Source: Lophium mytilinum (Eukaryota > Ascomycota > Dothideomycetes > Mytilinidiales > Mytilinidiaceae). Taken from it: a DNA stretch of 64,000 nucleotides. How positions within the stretch are numbered: position 1 is the stretch's first letter; the number at the start of each line of letters is the position of its first letter. The notes under the pieces were generated by a model. It did not search any database and had not been told where the DNA came from. It worked only from the letters and a program-made list of their open reading frames with translations. The stretch covers positions 1,233,832 through 1,297,831 of the forward strand of contig MU004191.1 in the NCBI GenBank assembly GCA_010093605.1, read 5' to 3'. The position numbers were made by a program, and so were the translations under genes. This document shows positions 9,890-61,582 of this stretch, piece by piece.

Positions 9890-11672
<1,783 letters not shown>

Positions 11673-20569: not shown

Positions 20570-21527
20570 ATGGTTTACTACTTCACGAGCAACACGGTAT
20601 CCCCGGCTGCCTTCATTTACGTTGGCAAGGACAAGGTTGAAAGTGAGATACTTAGCCGTCAGACCGTGTGAACGATCTACTCACTCAATTTAGACGAAGA
20701 ATTGATCAAATATGGACTAGATGAGGACGTCTGGTAAGTGTCTAAAAAAATTAAGCCGCTTCTGATCTGTTATCTAATCGTCCTATTAAGGGTACTGATT
20801 TGTTGAAGGACTGCTCCGAGCTCTAAATAACACCTTCCAGTTCCATGTCGACAACCTTTCCAGCGCTCACGTATACCTTCGAATGAACGAGGGAGACTCA
20901 TGGGACTCGATACCGTCAGATCTTCTCACAGACTGCGCACAGCTGACGAAGGCCAATTCGATTGAGGGTCTAACTATCTGAGCCCTTCCTTAGCTAAATG
21001 CACTGACACTCGGCAAGGCAACAAGAAGGATAACATCACTGTCATCTACACGCCATGGTCCAACCTCAAAAAGGATGGCAGTATGGCAGTTGGCCAAGTG
21101 AGCTTCAAAGATCAGCGCAAGGTATGCTAGCTAGATCTTGAAGCCCAACGTACAATAGTCTAAACCCGAGGCAGGTCAAGAAAATCCATGTTGCTCAACG
21201 AGAAAATGTCATCGTGAATCGTCTTAATAAGACAAAAATCGAGAAGTTTCCCGACCTTCGACAAGAGAAGGAAACGCGACAGAAGGAGCTGAGGCATCGC
21301 GACAAAGCTACCCAACTTGCCCGGGTAAGCAGCTCTGATCATCAGCCATTTGGCTCAACGCTAATCTCTGTTCTGCACAGCAAAAGGAAGAGGCTAGAGT
21401 AGCTAAAGAGCGCAAGGAGAAGGCTTGGCAGAGGGATCATGCCTACGACGATCTGCTCTCTGAAGACGCAGTCGCATCTTCGAGCAACCAAGACCGGGAT
21501 CCAGACTTCGAAGACGACTTCATGTGA
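20570..21527 (+). CDS. CCDC25/Jlp2 family protein (NFACT-R domain)
   Basis: Coding segments 20570-20642, 20694-20733, 20791, 20841-20967, 21018-21121, 21175-21324 and 21381-21527 give 213 residues, the family length. The product matches human CCDC25 and yeast Jlp2 throughout: start [20 protein letters not shown], then [33 protein letters not shown] and a charged coiled-coil C-terminus ending DFEDDFM. The NFACT-R (DUF814) domain covers residues about 1-115. Human CCDC25 has been reported as a membrane DNA sensor; the fungal role is not known. To keep the conserved Trp-Phe (DVWFHVD), a single G at 20791 must be an exon between introns of 57 and 49 nt. Introns are otherwise 50-56 nt. Confidence 0.92.
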
Positions 21528-34129: not shown

Positions 34130-35460
34130 CTACACCACCTCGACACTCTTATTCGTCGCCCCATCCTCTTTCCTGCTATCTCCGTCTTCAAACTCCACCA
34201 CCACATTCGTTGTCTGCTTGATCCCCCGCACATTCTGCATCCTAAACTCGTCCCCCAGAATACTCTCATCGCTCCCATTCGCCTTCGTCCGCCCGCTGCC
34301 TCCCACGCCCCCGAGCCCGCCGCCCACACTTGCCGCGCCCCCGGTCACCGTCACCCCATTCCCGTTCCCACTACGGTCATTCAGCGTATACATGCCCCCC
34401 GTCCCGCGCGTGCGCCTGCCACCCGTGCGGCCGCCGGTGGTGCTATCGCCCATGGACGACGCGAGGCCCTTGACGTAGCGGCGGTAGAGGGTGCGGGTGG
34501 CGGGGAGGCAGGTGCAGACGATGCTGACGGTGAGCTCGGTGCTGCTCCAGAGGACGGGCGCGGCGAACTGGTAGTTGCGGTCCGAGGCGGAGCCTAGGGC
34601 GACGAGTTGCTGCAGGCGCACGAGGCCGCAGATGCCGGCGAGGACGCCGGCGGAGAGCGAGAGGGTGATGGTGAGGCGCTCGCGGCGCTTGATTTGGAGG
34701 TTGCGCAGGAAGAACCAGGGGAGGGCGGCGAGGAAGAAGTCGAGGAAGGTGCCGTAGCCTAAGGGGTGGGGGGTTAGGGAAGGNNNNNNNNNNNNNNNNN
34801 NNNGGGCGTACCGGCTAGGGTGTAACCGACGGCGGTTACGTTGAAGTGGCAGACTTTGTCGGTTATGAAGGGGTTCCAGTTGGAGTAGACGGGGAAGCAT
34901 TGGACGAAGAGGCCGATGAACTCGAGGAGGCAGAGGATGGCGACGATGGCCATGGATGAGTAGATGATTATCTTGTGTCTGTGCATGCGAGATTGGTGAG
35001 AACGCGTGCGAAGTATGTGGGCGGTCTCGGTTTTACGCAGTACTCACGTCTTCTTTACCACGATCATGAGTAGGAAGGTTGCAACGGCAGCTTTGCTAGT
35101 GAGGACAGACAAGGGGAAGATGCAGGCGTAGGTGAACAATAGCTTGGACAGCTTTTTGATTTGTTCTACATCTGTCAATTTGTCGTTGTGTTGGCCTAGG
35201 CCTCGATATGCTCCCCCAATGGCTACCGCTGTAAAAGCAATGAGCATGACCTATTTGAGCGTCAGTGAGATAGATAAGGGTGGCGGTTTGCGGATAGGTT
35301 CAAGTACCATCGCTGCCCATAGCCAGTAATCATCCGCTCGCATGCCAGAAAACAGCCTTATACGTGCCCAGGTCCTCGTCGCAACGAATGCAAGCGCTAG
35401 GAACATTTCCAGGAGCGTAACGCCGACAACTGTCGGTCCCATGCCCCCGAGGCCCCCCAT
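34130..35460 (-). CDS. seven-helix integral membrane protein (fungal rhodopsin/Pth11-like)
   Basis: Four exons (35460-35308, 35250-35048, 34978-34812, 34758-34130) give 383 residues. The layout is that of the fungal rhodopsin-domain/Pth11-like family: short outer N-terminus, helix 1 (VVGVTLLEMFLALAFVATRT), the conserved ADDYWLWAA motif before helix 2, and further helices at about residues 90-110, 125-145, 175-195, 205-225 and 240-260. The cytosolic tail (about 110 residues) is Gly/Thr-rich. There is no N-terminal CFEM domain. Members are putative receptors at the plasma membrane with mostly unknown ligands. A 20-base assembly gap (34784-34803) falls inside the third intron, so the protein should be complete. 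Converges with the TM9 gene. Confidence 0.83.
34784..34803. other. assembly gap (20 N)
   Basis: The only undetermined bases in the window. The surrounding GTACGCCC donor and CCCTTAG acceptor place the gap within a short intron of the rhodopsin-like gene. Confidence 0.99.
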
Positions 35461-39196: not shown

Positions 39197-39931
39197 GATG
39201 ATGAAATTGAGATTTGTGGAGAGAATAATAAGAAAGTGTGTATGATGAAGGCGTACTGAAACAGTAATCTGGGGTTTGCATCGTAATCCGGGGAACCTGC
39301 AGGCTTTATGCACATGTCTGGGGCTTCACGGGAGGCCACATAAGAAATTTTGTGGGGTTAGGAGGCTCTTCTGAACTGTGTCCCTCGAGATCGAGACCCA
39401 ACTTCTTCTTGCCGTTTTTAGGGTTCGGTTTCCGAGAGCGCCACCATCGCCTTGACTGGAATTAGCAAGTATGCGGGAGACCAATGCTAGCAAGTTGCAC
39501 TTTATCCTCCAGAATTATGTTGGCGAGGTCAAGCTGGAGGGATTGGAAGTCTCCTGAATCGCGAGTTCGTGACTACTACTAGAAAAAAAGTGAATTAGAA
39601 TAGGCGCACAACGGGTACCAATGACTCGCTGAAGTCACGCTATCATCTCGGTACGGGGCTGGGGCTTGAGCTAGCCGATTCCCGTAACTTGTAGAGGGCT
39701 ATCTTTTCTATCCAGACCTGCCGTTCTCGGAAAGTTTCCAGGTGTGGAAAGGTTGAAGATGGGTCCAGGCACCCCGGGAAACGCCACAGTGAGTTGCATT
39801 CACGGCGTATCATGTATCGAGTCTCATAATCGTCTCGAACAGCTCTGGGTTGTTGATAAATAAAGCCTTGTTTTTACTTTGGAAGAGGTGCATCGCAACA
39901 CTTTCAGCATTGACAACGAATATACACCACA
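39197..39931. other. divergent promoter of transporter and reductase genes
   Basis: 735 bp between two divergent start codons. No gene. An AT-rich motif TTGATAAATAAAGC lies about 80 bp upstream of the reductase start (39852-39865) and could serve as a TATA-like element. Confidence 0.4.
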
Positions 39932-42214
39932 ATGGACGCAGTGTCCACTTCGTACTTTCTTACCGTTGGCAGCGAGGATACCGTTCTGCTACTGTTGGTC
40001 ACCACGGTGCTGCTCTACTATGTAGCCCAAAGTCAGATTGGTCCGAAGCATGAGCGGTCTCGTCTTGAAGACCTGTTTAATATTCCTCAAAGACAATCGC
40101 ATCGGACCGGAGCTTCTCCAATTTCGCAAGGAAGAAGCCGTAATGTTTGCGATGTAATCGGGCCTTCGTCGGTAAGCACTTCGATTTTTCTTCGCATTTA
40201 TCAGTATACCTGTACATTATGGGAGTCGCGACTAACTAGAAAGCTGCAGGATGTTGGAGCGGTCGTCTTCTGGGCATCGCAAGGTGGCTCTGCGGAAGCC
40301 CTAGCATCTCGTTGCACCTCCGACCTCACGAAAGCTTTATCCAAACGGGTCATCACCGCCGACCTAGCGGATTATGATTTCAAGCATATGCCAGACGTAA
40401 AGTCTCAAGCACTGCTGATTTTTGTCGTGTCTACATATGGTGAAGGAGACCCGCCTGATAATGGCGTCGCCTTCCTCGAATCCCTTTGTGAGCTTCGCAA
40501 GCGGAGACGCCGGCTGAACAATGTCCGCTATACGATGTTTGGCTTAGGCAATTCCAACTATACGCATTACAATAAGTTTGCGTTTGATATCGACCGCCTC
40601 CTCGTGGAGTTGGGCGCCACCAAGATCGGTCCTCTTGGGCTGGGTGACGACCGCGAGGGCGGCACTGAGGAAAGCTTTGTGTCTTGGAAGAGCGACATGG
40701 GCCATCAGGTAGCAGAAACGCTACACCTACGTCCTGTTCAGAAAGGCTACTCACCTCGCATACGTATTTGTCCTCTAAAGGATAGCAGCGATGGCACGAT
40801 GCCTGGAGTCTCGTCAAACGTCTACCAAGGCGAGCCGGTACCTGTCTCAGCCACATCTAATTTGAGCAGCAACATTACTCTCCCAATCACAGGGGCTCGA
40901 CAACTCACTTCTGTGAAAGACGGTGGCGATGCTCAGATCTCCCGTCATTGTGTTCACCTGGAATTTAGCCTTGACGGCTGTCCGACGGTAACCTACGAGA
41001 CAGGGGACTATCTTCGCATCTGGCCCATCAACCCGGACTCGGAGGTTCAGGCACTGCTACATGTCTTGGGGGTCTGGGACGCACGCAAGGATGTGGTGGC
41101 AATTGTACCGATTGACGGGACCTCGCGCTCCAGTATTCGAATCCCGACTCCTGCGACTTTAGAAGCCCTGTTCCGCTACTGTCTTGACATCTGTGGACCC
41201 GTTTCGAGGGCATTCCTCGGTGGTCTATCAGAGTTCACTACGGATACGAATGTTCAAGATCGACTCGAAGCATTGACAGGCGACCGCAACGTGTTTTACG
41301 AAAAGGTCACATCGAAACGGTGGACCCTTGCCGCAGTATTGAAATTGGTAACGGCACAAAGCGAGAGTGGTCGAGGACAATCGAGTCTGGATATACCTCT
41401 ATCCTACGTTTTGGAGAACCTAAAGAAGCTTCAGCCCAGAAGTTACTCTATTTCTTCCTCTCCTCTCCTGGACCCACGAGCTATTGCCGTTACAGCATTG
41501 GCGGTAAGCGATTCTCTGAAAGAGGCATCGACAGATACTTACCTCTTCCGCGGAGTGACCAGCAACTATTTGTTGCAGTTACAACAAGAGTTTGGTCAAG
41601 TCTCGCCCGAGACGCAATCATCAACGGGTTCTTATTCCACTGCGGGGCCTTGTGATCTCCTTCAGGGGGGCAAGGTGTTCGCTCGCATCCGCCGAAGTAA
41701 CTTCAAACCGCCGACAGACCCGTCAACTCCTATTATAATGATCGGCTCTGGGACCGGCGTCGCGCCTTTCCGAGCCTTTGTTCAGGAGCGGATGAAGCTC
41801 AAGATGCAGGGTTCGCACGTCGGCAAAACAATGCTGCTAGTGGGACACCGGGATGCAGATGAAGATTATTACTACAGTGATCTGTGGCAAGAGGCTAACG
41901 AGTGTCTGGGCGAAGCGTTCGAATTATTCACGGCGTTTTCACGCGGAAACCAGAAACCTCGGCAGTACGTTCAAGATGTGTTAGCAACCAAGTCTGATAA
42001 AGTCCTCGACATCTTGGCTGCTAACCGTCCAGCTGGTGGCGCCATGTATATTTGCGGGTCGTCGCTCATGGCAAACGGAGTAAAGACCTGCCTTGCAGAA
42101 ATGTGGTCCCAGAGCTCACGGAAGTCGGCGAGCCTGCCAGGTGAAACTGCTGATGAGTGGATAAAGGGACTTAGTCGACTAAGGCGTTTGCAAGAGGATT
42201 CGTGGGGGAAGTAA
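39932..42214 (+). CDS. NADPH-cytochrome P450 reductase paralogue
   Basis: Two exons, 39932-40171 and 40250-42214, give 734 residues. It passes electrons from NADPH through FAD and FMN to microsomal P450s. Order: N-terminal anchor (residues about 18-35, LLLLVTTVLLYYVA); flavodoxin domain with SQGGSAE, STYGEGDPPDN and GLGNSNYTHYN; FAD domain with RSYSISSSP; NADPH domain with GSGTGVAPFRAFVQER; C-terminus LQEDSWGK. The phosphate loop reads SQGGSAE instead of the usual SQTGTAE, and the tail differs from the common EDVW end, so this looks like a specialised paralogue rather than the housekeeping enzyme. It sits between a sugar transporter and a regulator, and its last 44 nt overlap the end of the regulator gene on the other strand. 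Confidence 0.92.
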   Translation: MDAVSTSYFLTVGSEDTVLLLLVTTVLLYYVAQSQIGPKHERSRLEDLFNIPQRQSHRTGASPISQGRSRNVCDVIGPSSVSTSIFLRIYQYTCTLWESRLTRKLQDVGAVVFWASQGGSAEALASRCTSDLTKALSKRVITADLADYDFKHMPDVKSQALLIFVVSTYGEGDPPDNGVAFLESLCELRKRRRRLNNVRYTMFGLGNSNYTHYNKFAFDIDRLLVELGATKIGPLGLGDDREGGTEESFVSWKSDMGHQVAETLHLRPVQKGYSPRIRICPLKDSSDGTMPGVSSNVYQGEPVPVSATSNLSSNITLPITGARQLTSVKDGGDAQISRHCVHLEFSLDGCPTVTYETGDYLRIWPINPDSEVQALLHVLGVWDARKDVVAIVPIDGTSRSSIRIPTPATLEALFRYCLDICGPVSRAFLGGLSEFTTDTNVQDRLEALTGDRNVFYEKVTSKRWTLAAVLKLVTAQSESGRGQSSLDIPLSYVLENLKKLQPRSYSISSSPLLDPRAIAVTALAVSDSLKEASTDTYLFRGVTSNYLLQLQQEFGQVSPETQSSTGSYSTAGPCDLLQGGKVFARIRRSNFKPPTDPSTPIIMIGSGTGVAPFRAFVQERMKLKMQGSHVGKTMLLVGHRDADEDYYYSDLWQEANECLGEAFELFTAFSRGNQKPRQYVQDVLATKSDKVLDILAANRPAGGAMYICGSSLMANGVKTCLAEMWSQSSRKSASLPGETADEWIKGLSRLRRLQEDSWGK

Positions 42215-44682: not shown

Positions 44683-46291
44683 ATGTTTTCCATCAGTCTT
44701 CTCGCAGCTTTTGCAGTCTTGACTCCCGTGGTGTACTTCTGCACTTGCTTCATCGTATACTTTTATGATAGAAAAGGCTTTCGCCGCTTCCATAATTTAA
44801 GTGCCATTTCGGGCGCAACCGACATTCCGTGGCTATGGGAGTCGATTCACGGTCGACGATACAAGACTCTCCATGCTGCCCATCAAAAATCCTCGATTGT
44901 CCGAATCGCTCCCAACATTATCTCTTTCAATGACCCGAGTGCTGCTGCTTCTATCTATGGGCACGGTACAAAAGCCACCAAGTCGCCCTTTTACGACGCT
45001 TCTGGAGCTCACTTCAAGAATGTTGCCGACACACGAGACAAGCAGGACCATGCCCGGAAGCGACGACTCCTTGCGACTGGCTATGCTCTCACCACTCTTT
45101 TACGATGGGAAGGCAAGGTCGCGAGCCGTGTCAATGCTCTGTTAGACCAGTACGATGCACGCTGTGTCTCGCCGGATGTTTCAAATCGCGCGGATGCTGT
45201 TCCAGTGGATCATCGACGCTGGATGGACCTCTTTACTATCGATACCATAAACGACATCGGCCTCAGCGCCAACCTAAGGATGATAGAGAAGGGTGATGAC
45301 TCGATCGAGGTCCAAAATTCGCGTGGCCAAACATATCGCTGTAACTTTCGCAAATCACTATGGGGGTGAGCTTCTCCTTTCCTTTCCTCGCATCGTTTTT
45401 TCCTTACCAGTGCGCGGTTGCTAACCGTCGGTTAGAGGCTTGAGAATTCACGCTTCCTTTGCTTGGGCCCCAAAGTGGTACAGTTCTCTCAAGAGACTCA
45501 CCTGGTGGGACTCGCGATGGCAGGATAGCGCCGCTTTCGACGACATCGTGACCACTCAGACCAAGCATCGCATACATCGCCATCTAGCGGGAGAGAAGCT
45601 AGATGACTTCTTCTCCTACCTCCTCGAAAACAAAGATGGAGCCCCAAACATGCTAACGCTAGGGGAGATGGTGGCCGAGTGCTCGGTGATGCTGAACGCT
45701 GGGAGTGAAACAACGGGCATCTCCCTAAGCAATCTTCTTTACCTGCTCATTGTCAATCCCAAAGCTCTTGAGCGACTACGGCAGGAAGTAGATGAGGCAC
45801 TGAGCGGACTTGAAGATGTAAAGGTCGCACCCTTCGACAGCATACGCTACTTGCCGTATCTGAAAGCCTGCATTGACGAGGGTTTGCGACTCCATCCTCC
45901 GAGCGTCACGACAACCCCTCGAATCACGGCGCCGTCGGGACAGGAGATCATGGGTCAATGGATTCCTGGAAACACCGAGGTGCTCTGCCCAACATACACT
46001 CTCCAAAGAAACCCAACGGTTTTCTCGAATCCCGAGTCATTCCAACCAGAGCGATGGCTCGGCGAGAATGCTAAAGTTTTGCAGTCGGCTTTTCTTCCAT
46101 TCAGTCTTGGACCAAGAGGGTGCATTGGGAGGAACATCACGTACATGGAGCAGCAGATGCTGATTGCCTCCCTAGTTCATCGCTACACGTTTGATTTGAT
46201 TTCTCCCGACTTCAAACCAACGTATGAGGAGGCTGTCACATGCTCACCTGGACCTATACCGATCTATCTAGCCAGACGTGCGAGGCCATGA
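44683..46291 (+). CDS. cytochrome P450, CYP53-like (benzoate hydroxylase type)
   Basis: Two exons, 44683-45365 and 45436-46291, give 512 residues. An N-terminal membrane anchor (LLAAFAVLTPVVYFCTCFIV) places it in the ER. P450 motifs in order: I-helix AGSETTG, K-helix EGLR (E-x-x-R), PERW region and haem loop FSLGPRGCIGRN with the Cys thiolate. The segments KSSIVRIAPNIISF and IYGHGTKATKSPFYDA resemble benzoate 4-hydroxylase (CYP53), which opens the degradation of benzoate. CYP53 enzymes often work with a particular reductase, and a reductase paralogue lies two genes away. The start is the ATG before the anchor; 70-nt intron. Another clan member with a different aromatic substrate is possible. 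Confidence 0.88.
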
Positions 46292-57678: not shown

Positions 57679-59436
57679 CTACCCATGAGCGGCGACCGTC
57701 GCCCTTGCTGGCAGAACCGCAGGCTCCGGCATCGACCCCTTTTCCTCCTCCACGACCTTCCTCACGTCAGGTACCACCACTTTCTCCTCTACTTTCACCT
57801 CTGGCTCCGGGATCTCCATGCCCCATCTGAAGGCACTCCCATAATGATCGTCTCTCAGCCCCTTCTGCCCAGCGCCATAGAGATTCTCCCTAAATGCACC
57901 GCCAGGTACCTCGTAATCATCCCAATACATACCTCGCTTCTGTAACTCAGGTATCAGCAAATCGATCGTGTCCTTCCAGCTGCCCGGGTTCGTCACACTC
58001 GCGATATTGAACCCATCACAATCCGCTTCGGTTGCCCATTCCTCAAACACATCTGCAACCTGCTGCACGCTGCCAACAGGACTTGGATGCAAGCCCCCAA
58101 GTGCCATCTTGATCCCCAGCCTTCGTGGTGTCCATGGGCCCGACGCCGACTCCGATGCCTCCAGAGCGCGGAAAACAGATTGGATCGCCATAGCCTGATT
58201 CGCTTTCGACAAATCGATGGGCTCGTCTAGCGGGTACTGCGACATATCAATACCTGTGTAGCCGGAGAACTGTCCCAAGCCAGCCACGGGGTCTGCGTGC
58301 TTCTTCGCATGTTCGTATTTCGCCTTGGCTTCTTCCTCCGTTCGTCCAATGAAGGGCACGATACAAGGGAAGAACTTAATGCTCTTCGGGTCACGGCCGC
58401 GAGCGGCAGCAGCAGCACGCGCGTCTGCAATGACCTTTTTCGCCTGCGCCACGGTGGAAGTGTTGAGGAAGAGAGCTTCGGCATGCTTGACGGCGAAGGC
58501 GGCGCCAGATTTGGATGTGCCGGCTTGGAAGAGCACGGGGGTGCGTTGAGGAGAAGGGTGCACTTGGTTGCGACCAGCCATACTGAAGTATTTGCCCTTG
58601 TGCGTGATCTTCTTGATTTTGGAGGCGTCAAAGGCCACACCTGTTGACTTGTTCCAGACGGCAGAGTCAGGGGCCCAGGATGATTCCCAGAGTCTGTGAT
58701 ATTCATGTTAGTGTGTCAATCCCAGTGGAAATACTTTGATTGTTTAAGAGAAGAAAGGGTTGAGACTTACTTGTATGTCACGTCCATGAAGTCGTCCGCC
58801 ATGTCGTATCGCTCGTCATGGGGTATTACGTTCTCTTGTCCCAAAGCATTCGCTGCACACTTCGACCAGCTAGTAACGATATTCCACGCACATCGCCCTT
58901 TCGTTAGGTGATCCAGAGTGCTGTACAGACGGGCTAGCACGTATGGGTTTTCGTAGCTGGTGCTCATCGTGACAGCAAAAGAAACCGACTTTGTCACTGC
59001 CGCCATTGCTGAAACTATGGGCAAAGGGTCGAGATGAGCAACTTGGTGTCCCGCTTGTAGCATAGCATCCATGCTACCGCCATATATCTCAAAGCCGCCG
59101 TACCAATCCGCAAAGAAGATAGCCTGAGGGGTGTTAGTAGGGGCGGTGTTATGATGGTAGCGGTGGTGATGCGGAGAGGGGGGTTGTATAGTGTGGATTT
59201 CGGTTGAACGTACGCTAACTTTCCCCTTCTCTGCTAATTTCGCAAGGTCCGTATAGTACTCCAACGTGTCTTTGGTACTTGAAACATCTTCGTCTGTTCT
59301 GCGGTGCTTACGTGTCAGTGTCTCGAGCTTCTTCAAAGTGTGCGGAGAGCTCATCATACTTCCACTGCCCAGCAGCCATGTAACCACCTGTACAACACGT
59401 TTCCAGGAAACAAATCTGGACCTTCTTTGGAGCCAT
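57679..59436 (-). CDS. flavin-dependent monooxygenase, NtaA/SnaA/DszA family
   Basis: Four exons (59436-59312, 59277-59214, 59123-58771, 58693-57679) give 518 residues. The bacterial luciferase-like (LLM) family uses FMNH2 supplied by a reductase; relatives oxidise nitrilotriacetate, dibenzothiophene sulfone or alkyl sulfonates. Recognisable segments: FFADWYGGFEIYGGSMDAML, SFAVTMSTSYENPYVLARL, CAWNIVTSWSKCAANALGQ, HDERYDMADDFMDVTYKLW, VLFQAGTSKSGAAFA and DGFNIASVTNPGSW. The C-terminal 45 residues are a Glu/Val/Lys-rich extension. The first intron, needed to keep the conserved TKDTLEYYTDLAKLAEKGK in frame, is only 34 nt. The gene is divergent from the CYP504-like P450, 510 bp apart. Substrate unknown. 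Confidence 0.9.
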
Positions 59437-59946
59437 TGTTGATCGGTGTAGAGAGAGAGAGACGAACGCTTAATTGGAGTGTAACAATTTAGTGATAGAA
59501 GAAGATTTGGAGGCTTTTTCAGGAACCAACAAACGTAACCCCACCTCACAACGCGGGACAATGAGGGGCAGCCGCATCTTGCCACGGTACTAGACTCGTC
59601 CATCTAAGTCGGACTACGAGCCTTGGCGCGGTGGTGTGGTGTTGCGGCTTGGGGTGAGGTCTCCGTCTCGAGGATCGCGGAAGCTAGCAATTATCCCGAT
59701 GCAAGCGATAACGCCGCCCTGGGATTCGGAGTGGGCGCCATGCGTCTCTAGTACCACAGTCGAATCGTAACTCAACGGGATGCACCTTTTGCTACCTTCA
59801 CGTCGGATAGAAACTGGCAACCCACGCCGGCCCCGCAGCGTATTGACATGCCCTTCAGCAAAAGAAACACAAATGTACAGCCTTCACTCTGCCCTTGAGC
59901 TTGTCACTGCGTAGAAACAAACCTCTCCAGAATTCAATCTACTACC
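59437..59946. other. divergent promoter of monooxygenase and P450 genes
   Basis: 510 bp between two divergent start codons. No gene and no clear site; frames here have no support. Confidence 0.5.
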
Positions 59947-61582
59947 ATGTCGTCACCTGACATGGTGCCCGAGCTCCAGCGCGTCCTGCTTTCAAAGGAG
60001 GGATTGGGTGTCTTTGCAGTATCCGTCGTCGGTCTAGTGATATTTCTTGCTGTATAGAACCCCTGGAAAAGTCCTTTTATAGCTCGTAATATTAACCGCT
60101 TTACAGGTGGAAGCATACAAAACCAATTTTCAGAAGATCGCCGGCATTCCAGAGGTCCCAAATGCATCACCGTTTATTGGGCACATGGGATCCCTAGGCG
60201 GTCGCTTAGATAAGAATGACGGTACCATCTATTCAGAATGGGCTACAGAAACCGGCTCAGACATCTACCAAATCCGCGTAGGCAATCAGCGGTCCGTGGT
60301 GGTGAACTCATGGGCACTGATGAAGGAATTCTGGATCAACCGCTCTAATACGCTCATCGACCGTCCCCACCAGCCCGGCTTCCTCGACAAGCTTGGGGTC
60401 GACTTGACCGGAATGCCTATGACGGACCAAATTCGAAGATGTCGGCAAGCTGCCATGAAGGCTCTCGGCAAGCCCATGTGGCCCAAGTATTACCATCTCG
60501 TGGAGCCCTCATCCGTTGGTTTGGTCAAATCGCTGTACACCAAGGGTCAAAACGGCGAGAAACCTATAGACGTGTACTACTACCTCCGCCAAGTAGTCTT
60601 CGATCTTGCGTTATCATTGACTTATGGTTCCCGATATGGAGCCGTAGACGATGAATTTATGAAGAATTTCATCAAGTCGATCAATGCTATCTCTGCGGTG
60701 CGGTCATCCACAGCGAATTTCCGTCACTACGTGCCTCTACTACGATTGATTCCAGAACGTATGAATGAGACTGTCAAAGCGGAAAGGACACGAGCCGCTC
60801 ATGTGGAGGTCCTTATGAAGTCCCTCAACGAGCGTATCGCAGCCGGCGAGGATATCGATTGTATTGTAACTTCTTTGGACGACGACAAGCTCTCAGAAGA
60901 GGAGATCCATGGAACCTGCATTTCGCTACTTCAAGCCGCTCCGGACACCGTGGCATCAGGAGTGTACCAGACAATTGCATGGCTTTGTACACCGTCGGGT
61001 CAGCCAACTCAAGCTAAAGTCGTTAAAGCTATTCTTGAAGCATATGGAGGAGACAGAGATTTGGCCTGGAGAATGGCATTCCGAGAGGAGAAAGTGCCGT
61101 TGCTCGTATCACTGTACAAGGAGACTCTTCGATATTACACCTTCGCGCCCTTCGCAACACCTCGTCGAACTGTGAAAGATATCCAGTACAAAGATATGTT
61201 CTTTCCGAAAGGGATCACCATGATCATGAATGCGCAGCAGGTCAACCATGATCCCGAGTTCTTCGGTGCAGATGCGATGGAATTCAAACCGGCACGTTTC
61301 GTTGGAAACGACAGCCCCCTTCCTCATGTTGCATTCGGTTCCGGTAGTAGAATCTGCCCCGCAGTAGCTATCAGTAATCGCCTCATATATGCTCTAGTGA
61401 TGCGATTGCTGCTGGCGTTCGAGATCAAAGAGATAGATGGGCCGGGTGTGAGGAGGCCCAACATAGACCCCATTCATTTCTCAGACGTCTATAACCAGCT
61501 AGTTGCTCATCCTCGTTTCTTTGACTCCTGCTTTGTTGCCAGAGATCCTGCATGGCTAGAGATAATCACCAGTGAGGTATGA
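59947..61582 (+). CDS. cytochrome P450, CYP504-like (phenylacetate hydroxylase type)
   Basis: Two exons, 59947-60051 and 60107-61582, give 526 residues. An N-terminal anchor (VFAVSVVGLVIFLAVEAY, about residues 21-38) puts it in the ER membrane. The K-helix motif is KETLR and the haem loop VAFGSGSRICPAVAISNRL with Cys ligand. The I-helix region reads LLQAAPDTVASG, lacking the usual A/G-G-x-D/E-T-T pattern but fitting what I recall for CYP504/phenylacetate hydroxylases. Segments such as SDIYQIRVGNQRSVVVNSW and LIDRPHQPGFLDKLGVDLTG also fit that group. CYP504 enzymes hydroxylate phenylacetate on the way to homogentisate. Intron 55 nt; the start is the ATG before the anchor. Confidence 0.87.

Follow-up and report, generated by a model that had tools for sequence, protein, structure and literature searches.

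A probable single-nucleotide exon between two adjacent short introns in a fungal CCDC25/Jlp2 gene

A conserved tryptophan codon of a fungal gene raises the question of whether a coding exon may be as short as one nucleotide. The gene in question, CCDC25/Jlp2 (Jlp2 being the name of CCDC25 in yeast), is found on the plus strand at positions 20570–21527 of a 64,000-nucleotide stretch of Lophium mytilinum DNA (contig MU004191.1), referred to here as the window. One of its exons ends in the TG of the Trp38 codon, and the third base of this codon, G20791, appears to stand alone between two introns. Our reading of the sequence is that CCDC25/Jlp2 probably (at a probability of roughly 0.78) carries G20791 as a single-nucleotide exon between two adjacent short introns.

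Gene structure and the Trp38 junction

The match of the predicted protein to the Pfam family NFACT-R_1 (PF05670) scores 116.6 bits (cut-off 29.8) and covers profile positions 1–112 of 112. The protein also matches all three distinct CCDC25 sequences of the PDB, the best of them being 7eof_B (E 2.6e-60). The alignment with PDB CCDC25, at 55% identity, starts at residue 1 and is free of gaps at the disputed junction, where the PDB sequence reads DIWFHVD. The gene was parsed into seven exons, one of them consisting of a single base; with this base included, the coding sequence of 642 nt is in frame and gives 213 amino acids followed by a stop codon, and it shows no frame problem elsewhere. Exon 1 (20570–20642), which carries the ATG at 20570, is followed by intron 1 (20643–20693; 51 nt, GTGAGA...TAG) and exon 2 (20694–20733), whose 3′ end TG provides bases 1 and 2 of the Trp38 codon. 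Downstream of the disputed junction lie exon 4 (20841–20967), beginning TTC CAT GTC GAC, intron 4 (20968–21017; 50 nt, with the weak donor GTCTAA), exon 5 (21018–21121), intron 5 (21122–21174; 53 nt), exon 6 (21175–21324), intron 6 (21325–21380; 56 nt) and exon 7 (21381–21527), which includes the stop codon at 21525–21527.

At the junction itself the order is GAC GTC TG (ending at 20733), intron 2, G20791, intron 3 and TTC CAT GTC (starting at 20841). Direct parsing of the sequence confirmed the coordinates and lengths given in the original prediction, with intron 2 at 20734–20790 (57 nt, phase 2, GTAAGT...TTAAG), the proposed exon at 20791 and intron 3 at 20792–20840 (49 nt, phase 0, GTACTG...TTCCAG). 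Both introns are similar in length to the other four of the gene (51, 50, 53 and 56 nt). The single base between them has AG before it and GT after it, both dinucleotides being part of introns of a workable length, and TG+G+TTC reads Trp38-Phe39, with G20791 as the third base completing TGG.

All GT-AG and GC-AG introns of at least 35 nt in 20694–20967 were enumerated as single, paired and nested introns, the other introns of the gene being fixed as predicted. Six single introns of the enumerated set leave the frame open, so the earlier denial that a lone GT-AG intron could yield the frame was too broad, and it stands in the narrower sense that none of the six retains WFHVD, all of them deleting conserved residues. 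The two strongest contenders among the six are an intron at 20729–20840, which drops Val-Trp, and one at 20734–20863, which replaces WFHVDNLSS by Cys. WFHVD is retained in one of the 54 in-frame solutions with two introns, and the conserved motif is restored by two of 6,298 two-step paths (nested ones included), which are the two orders of removal of the pair formed by intron 2 and intron 3. GC donors, although allowed in the enumeration, never gave the conserved motif back. The assertion that DVWFHVD requires TG+G+TTC was thus borne out, this being the sole solution among the enumerated GT/GC-AG introns of at least 35 nt.

The failures expected of simpler splices were also found as predicted. 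Joining the outer donor to the outer acceptor omits G20791 and causes a frameshift with a stop after 15 new residues, and splicing out the first intron alone, with intron 3 retained, gives VWVLIC and then a stop; retention of intron 2 gives VW and then a stop. G20791 is needed both for the reading frame and for the conserved residue, and no other enumerated splicing solution supplies it.

Trp38, Asp36 and His40 are identical in 11 of 11 aligned sequences, which comprise the window protein, a PDB CCDC25 chain and nine bacterial sequences, namely Bacillus RqcH and the NFACT-R segments of eight out of 13 plasmid matches, with no other fungus among them. The sequences are partly non-independent, as one segment (L002, Bacillus velezensis) shares 89% identity with the RqcH query. 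The Pfam NFACT-R_1 score is 116.6 bits with G20791, as against 106.2 bits without Val-Trp and 84.6 bits without WFHVDNLSS. Two neighbouring introns one base apart, as originally proposed, are the best reading of the junction, because among the 6,298 paths this pair is the sole solution restoring the motif, together with a tryptophan found in every aligned sequence.

Splice-site strength and competing explanations

The donor of intron 2, GTAAGT, forms a U1 duplex of −11.0 kcal/mol (scored against the U1 end), a value equalled by 0.3% of the plus-strand GT sites. The best branch-point match of this intron is CTAAT, with its A about 13 nt upstream of the acceptor, and the AAG at 20790 is the first AG downstream. 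In intron 3, the best branch-point match is ATAAC, with its A about 10 nt upstream of the CAG acceptor, and the donor is GTACTG, whose U1 pairing amounts to −5.0 kcal/mol (14% of plus-strand GT sites are equally strong). A model trained on the window gives GTACTG a score of −1.77, and 46% of the GT sites of the window score as high or higher; a donor as low as this occurs in none of 37 high-scoring predicted introns, a set selected for high score. The weak donor of intron 3 is the main weakness of the one-base exon reading. Intron 4 of the same gene serves as an internal control: its donor GTCTAA scores −1.56 in the window-trained model (42% of GT sites are as good), agrees with the consensus at three of nine places and pairs with U1 at −3.5 kcal/mol, as against −5.0 for GTACTG. 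Intron 4 is bound to this donor, because the frame runs straight into a stop codon and the residues on either side are conserved.

The outer sites (GTAAGT and TTCCAG) reach 9.40 in the window-trained model when taken as one 107-nt intron, as compared with 7.97 and 3.49 for the two inner introns, and a gene finder blind to conservation omitted the one-base exon, its intron ending at 20863; therefore the spliceosome could skip G20791. An RNA fold bringing the outer sites together was looked for, and the stretch folds no more strongly than its shuffles, of which 155 in 200 did at least equally well (z 0.74). An argument from intron length against a single 107-nt intron was tried and dropped: among the 32 predicted introns with flanking exons of at least 100 nt, 17 measure 46–69 nt and 11 measure at least 100 nt, all in unverified gene models.

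Sequencing or assembly may have gained or lost one base at an outer junction and so masked an ordinary intron of about 107 nt, in which case the central AGGGT would be there by chance; the high score of the outer sites as a pair speaks for this. Such an error also agrees with the prediction of introns of at least 100 nt at other places in the window (11 of the 32 with long flanking exons, in unverified models) and with a gap of 20 N, which marks the window as draft sequence. However, when the 107-nt stretch was put through 20,000 dinucleotide shuffles with its ends fixed and both halves kept at 45 nt or more, AGGGT was suitably placed in just 0.7% of cases (AG-N-GT in 3.2%, and an exon of any frame-compatible length in 9.8%, irrespective of stop codons). 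The AGGGT is moreover accompanied by the CTAAT branch-point match at a proper distance, the two halves are sized like the other introns of the gene, and the remaining coding sequence is free of frame problems. We regard an error of this kind as unlikely, with a small but appreciable chance of being the correct explanation.

The same outer sites, which pair best, would also serve a locus that is drifting or regulated, where the 107-nt splice skipping G20791 dominates and leads to nonsense-mediated decay, either because the allele is dying or because unproductive splicing is used to adjust how much protein is made. The early stop reached on skipping of the G or on retention of either intron is in keeping with this possibility, which we nevertheless hold to be quite improbable: the coding sequence is intact elsewhere and 55% identical to PDB CCDC25, a decaying gene need not preserve a usable AGGGT, and no sign of regulation is seen in the data analysed. 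It is harder still to credit a single 112-nt intron (20729–20840, donor GTCTGG) yielding an in-frame protein without Val37-Trp38, since it would remove a tryptophan present in 11 of 11 rows, alter the fixed D-x-W-x-H spacing and lower the Pfam score by 10.4 bits. This intron is of the GT-AG type, is in frame and has an ordinary CAG acceptor; another GTC donor (GTCTAA of intron 4) is used in the same gene, and by plain consensus GTCTGG equals GTACTG, at four of nine places each. Yet GTCTGG scores −2.71 as against −1.77 for GTACTG and pairs with U1 at −3.6 as against −5.0 kcal/mol, and it sits 5 nt upstream of the near-consensus GTAAGT, which it must outcompete.

Intron removal, known systems and possible origin

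If G20791 is an exon, introns 2 and 3 presumably are of the U2 type and would be recognised by intron definition. Intron 2, with its near-consensus donor, its CTAAT match and the AAG at 20790, would probably be the first to leave, giving ...CTGG|GTACTG, and intron 3 would then be excised from the weak donor GTACTG in a reaction of its own. In the alternative order, removal of intron 3 first would give AAG|GTTCC and finally the same product. Simultaneous handling of both introns is hardly possible, because a single base separates the acceptor of intron 2 from the donor of intron 3. It is probably in this manner, and in the first of these orders, that the RNA is spliced.

Stepwise removal had been predicted together with a likeness to stwintrons, in which one splice signal of an external intron is split by an internal intron that has to be removed beforehand (PMC6616335). 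The locus resembles the stwintrons of Pezizomycotina in that two introns without the usual exon between them would be removed consecutively and in that splicing between the outermost sites changes the reading frame (PMC6616335, PMC9024468). In contrast to stwintrons, all splice signals are intact here and either order is possible on paper. No removal order is forced, because neither intron splits any signal of the other, and on paper the product is identical whichever of them goes first. A stwintron of the [D], [L] or [A] type was considered for this locus and rejected, as donors and acceptors are contiguous and no nested path among those enumerated restores the protein. The stepwise part of the prediction is likely to hold, and the stwintron-like part is not supported.

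G20791 belongs with the single-nucleotide exons, which are rare but already known, and is probably a further case of them. In Arabidopsis such an exon is described in APC11 (PMC4674806), and in land plants in VPS55 and APC11 (PMC8831610); as proposed here, these are one-base coding exons between two introns of conserved cellular genes, and for APC11 the removal of one intron after the other was proposed (PMC4674806). Unlike the present case, these exons belong to plant genes and are backed by cDNA or RT-PCR evidence, with mutant reporters in addition for APC11 (PMC4674806, PMC8831610). Mitochondrial cases, or mentions of them, concern Ophiostoma and other tree fungi as well as placozoans. A further parallel is offered by the CYP621A P450 genes of Fusarium, reported with RNA reads and described by their authors as the first case in a fungal gene (PMC12940212). 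As in CCDC25/Jlp2, a nuclear gene of a filamentous fungus there has an AG-G-GT core whose G completes a conserved codon, the frame being otherwise unjoinable (PMC12940212). The G of CYP621A occupies the middle of a Gly codon within a 139-nt intronic stretch (F. graminearum); the Fusarium exon is present in 20 orthologues (abstract) or 24 genes (discussion) and is supported by 18 SRA reads (PMC12940212). G20791, by contrast, takes the third place in a conserved Trp codon of another gene, and the proposed exon is seen in the DNA of one genome.

Among the titles and abstracts covered by the literature search, which took in few subscription papers, none reports a one-base exon in CCDC25/Jlp2, and none describes a further nuclear fungal case beyond CYP621A. 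The nuclear cases brought up by this search come from plants and from one Fusarium P450 subfamily. If true, the present exon might, as a tentative suggestion, be a second and independent fungal nuclear case after CYP621A; it could possibly also represent a natural intermediate of a one-base intron shift from phase 2 to phase 0. Each new case in another gene tests whether such exons are a freak or a regular by-product of intron gain beside existing introns, and also whether intron definition is sufficient for the removal of introns separated by a single base. The site can be checked across many genomes, because CCDC25 occurs in animals and, as Jlp2, in yeast.

Several origins would fit the sequence equally well. 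A new intron may have been gained one base downstream of an old phase-2 intron, as originally suggested, or one base ahead of a phase-0 intron that was already there, or the frame may have been rescued by a cryptic AGGGT, the scenario given for CYP621A (PMC12940212). Copying of one intron from another was looked for in 15 pairwise comparisons of the six introns of the gene, all of which were at shuffle level (lowest p 0.14, for introns 2 and 5; p 0.27 for introns 2 and 3), and the longest other match of any of the six introns within the window was 12 nt. Scans of genome_contigs and viral_contigs (prokaryotes and viruses) for CCDC25/Jlp2 homologues, with some patterns covering the N-terminus only and with limited reach, gave none, and a plasmid search with the whole window protein gave four weak bacterial matches.

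Other features of the window

We would also like to point out that two weak donors, GTACTG and GTCTAA, about equally far from the consensus, occur within one small gene. Elsewhere in the window, the gene finder placed a 120-nt intron at 10764–10883, which is possibly an intron that can be translated through: the open frame continues across it, but Glyco_hydro_1 is matched there in two stretches. The window contains 146 open frames of at least 110 amino acids, 30 of which were covered by the Pfam scan; matches among these 30 include a fungal rhodopsin domain, DUF2293, EMP70 and P450s, an assortment suggestive of a filamentous ascomycete. The fungal rhodopsin domain match belongs to the open frame 34133–35032 of the minus strand, which is broken by an assembly gap, the 20 N at 34784–34803. 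A flavodoxin/FAD/NAD-binding reductase, P450-reductase-like, occupies one long open frame at 39914–42211, and the P450 matches are located at 45425–46288 and 60083–61579. Finally, two minus-strand open frames at 57682–59603 match successive portions of Pfam Bac_luciferase, the luciferase-like monooxygenase family, and are probably one gene split by an intron.
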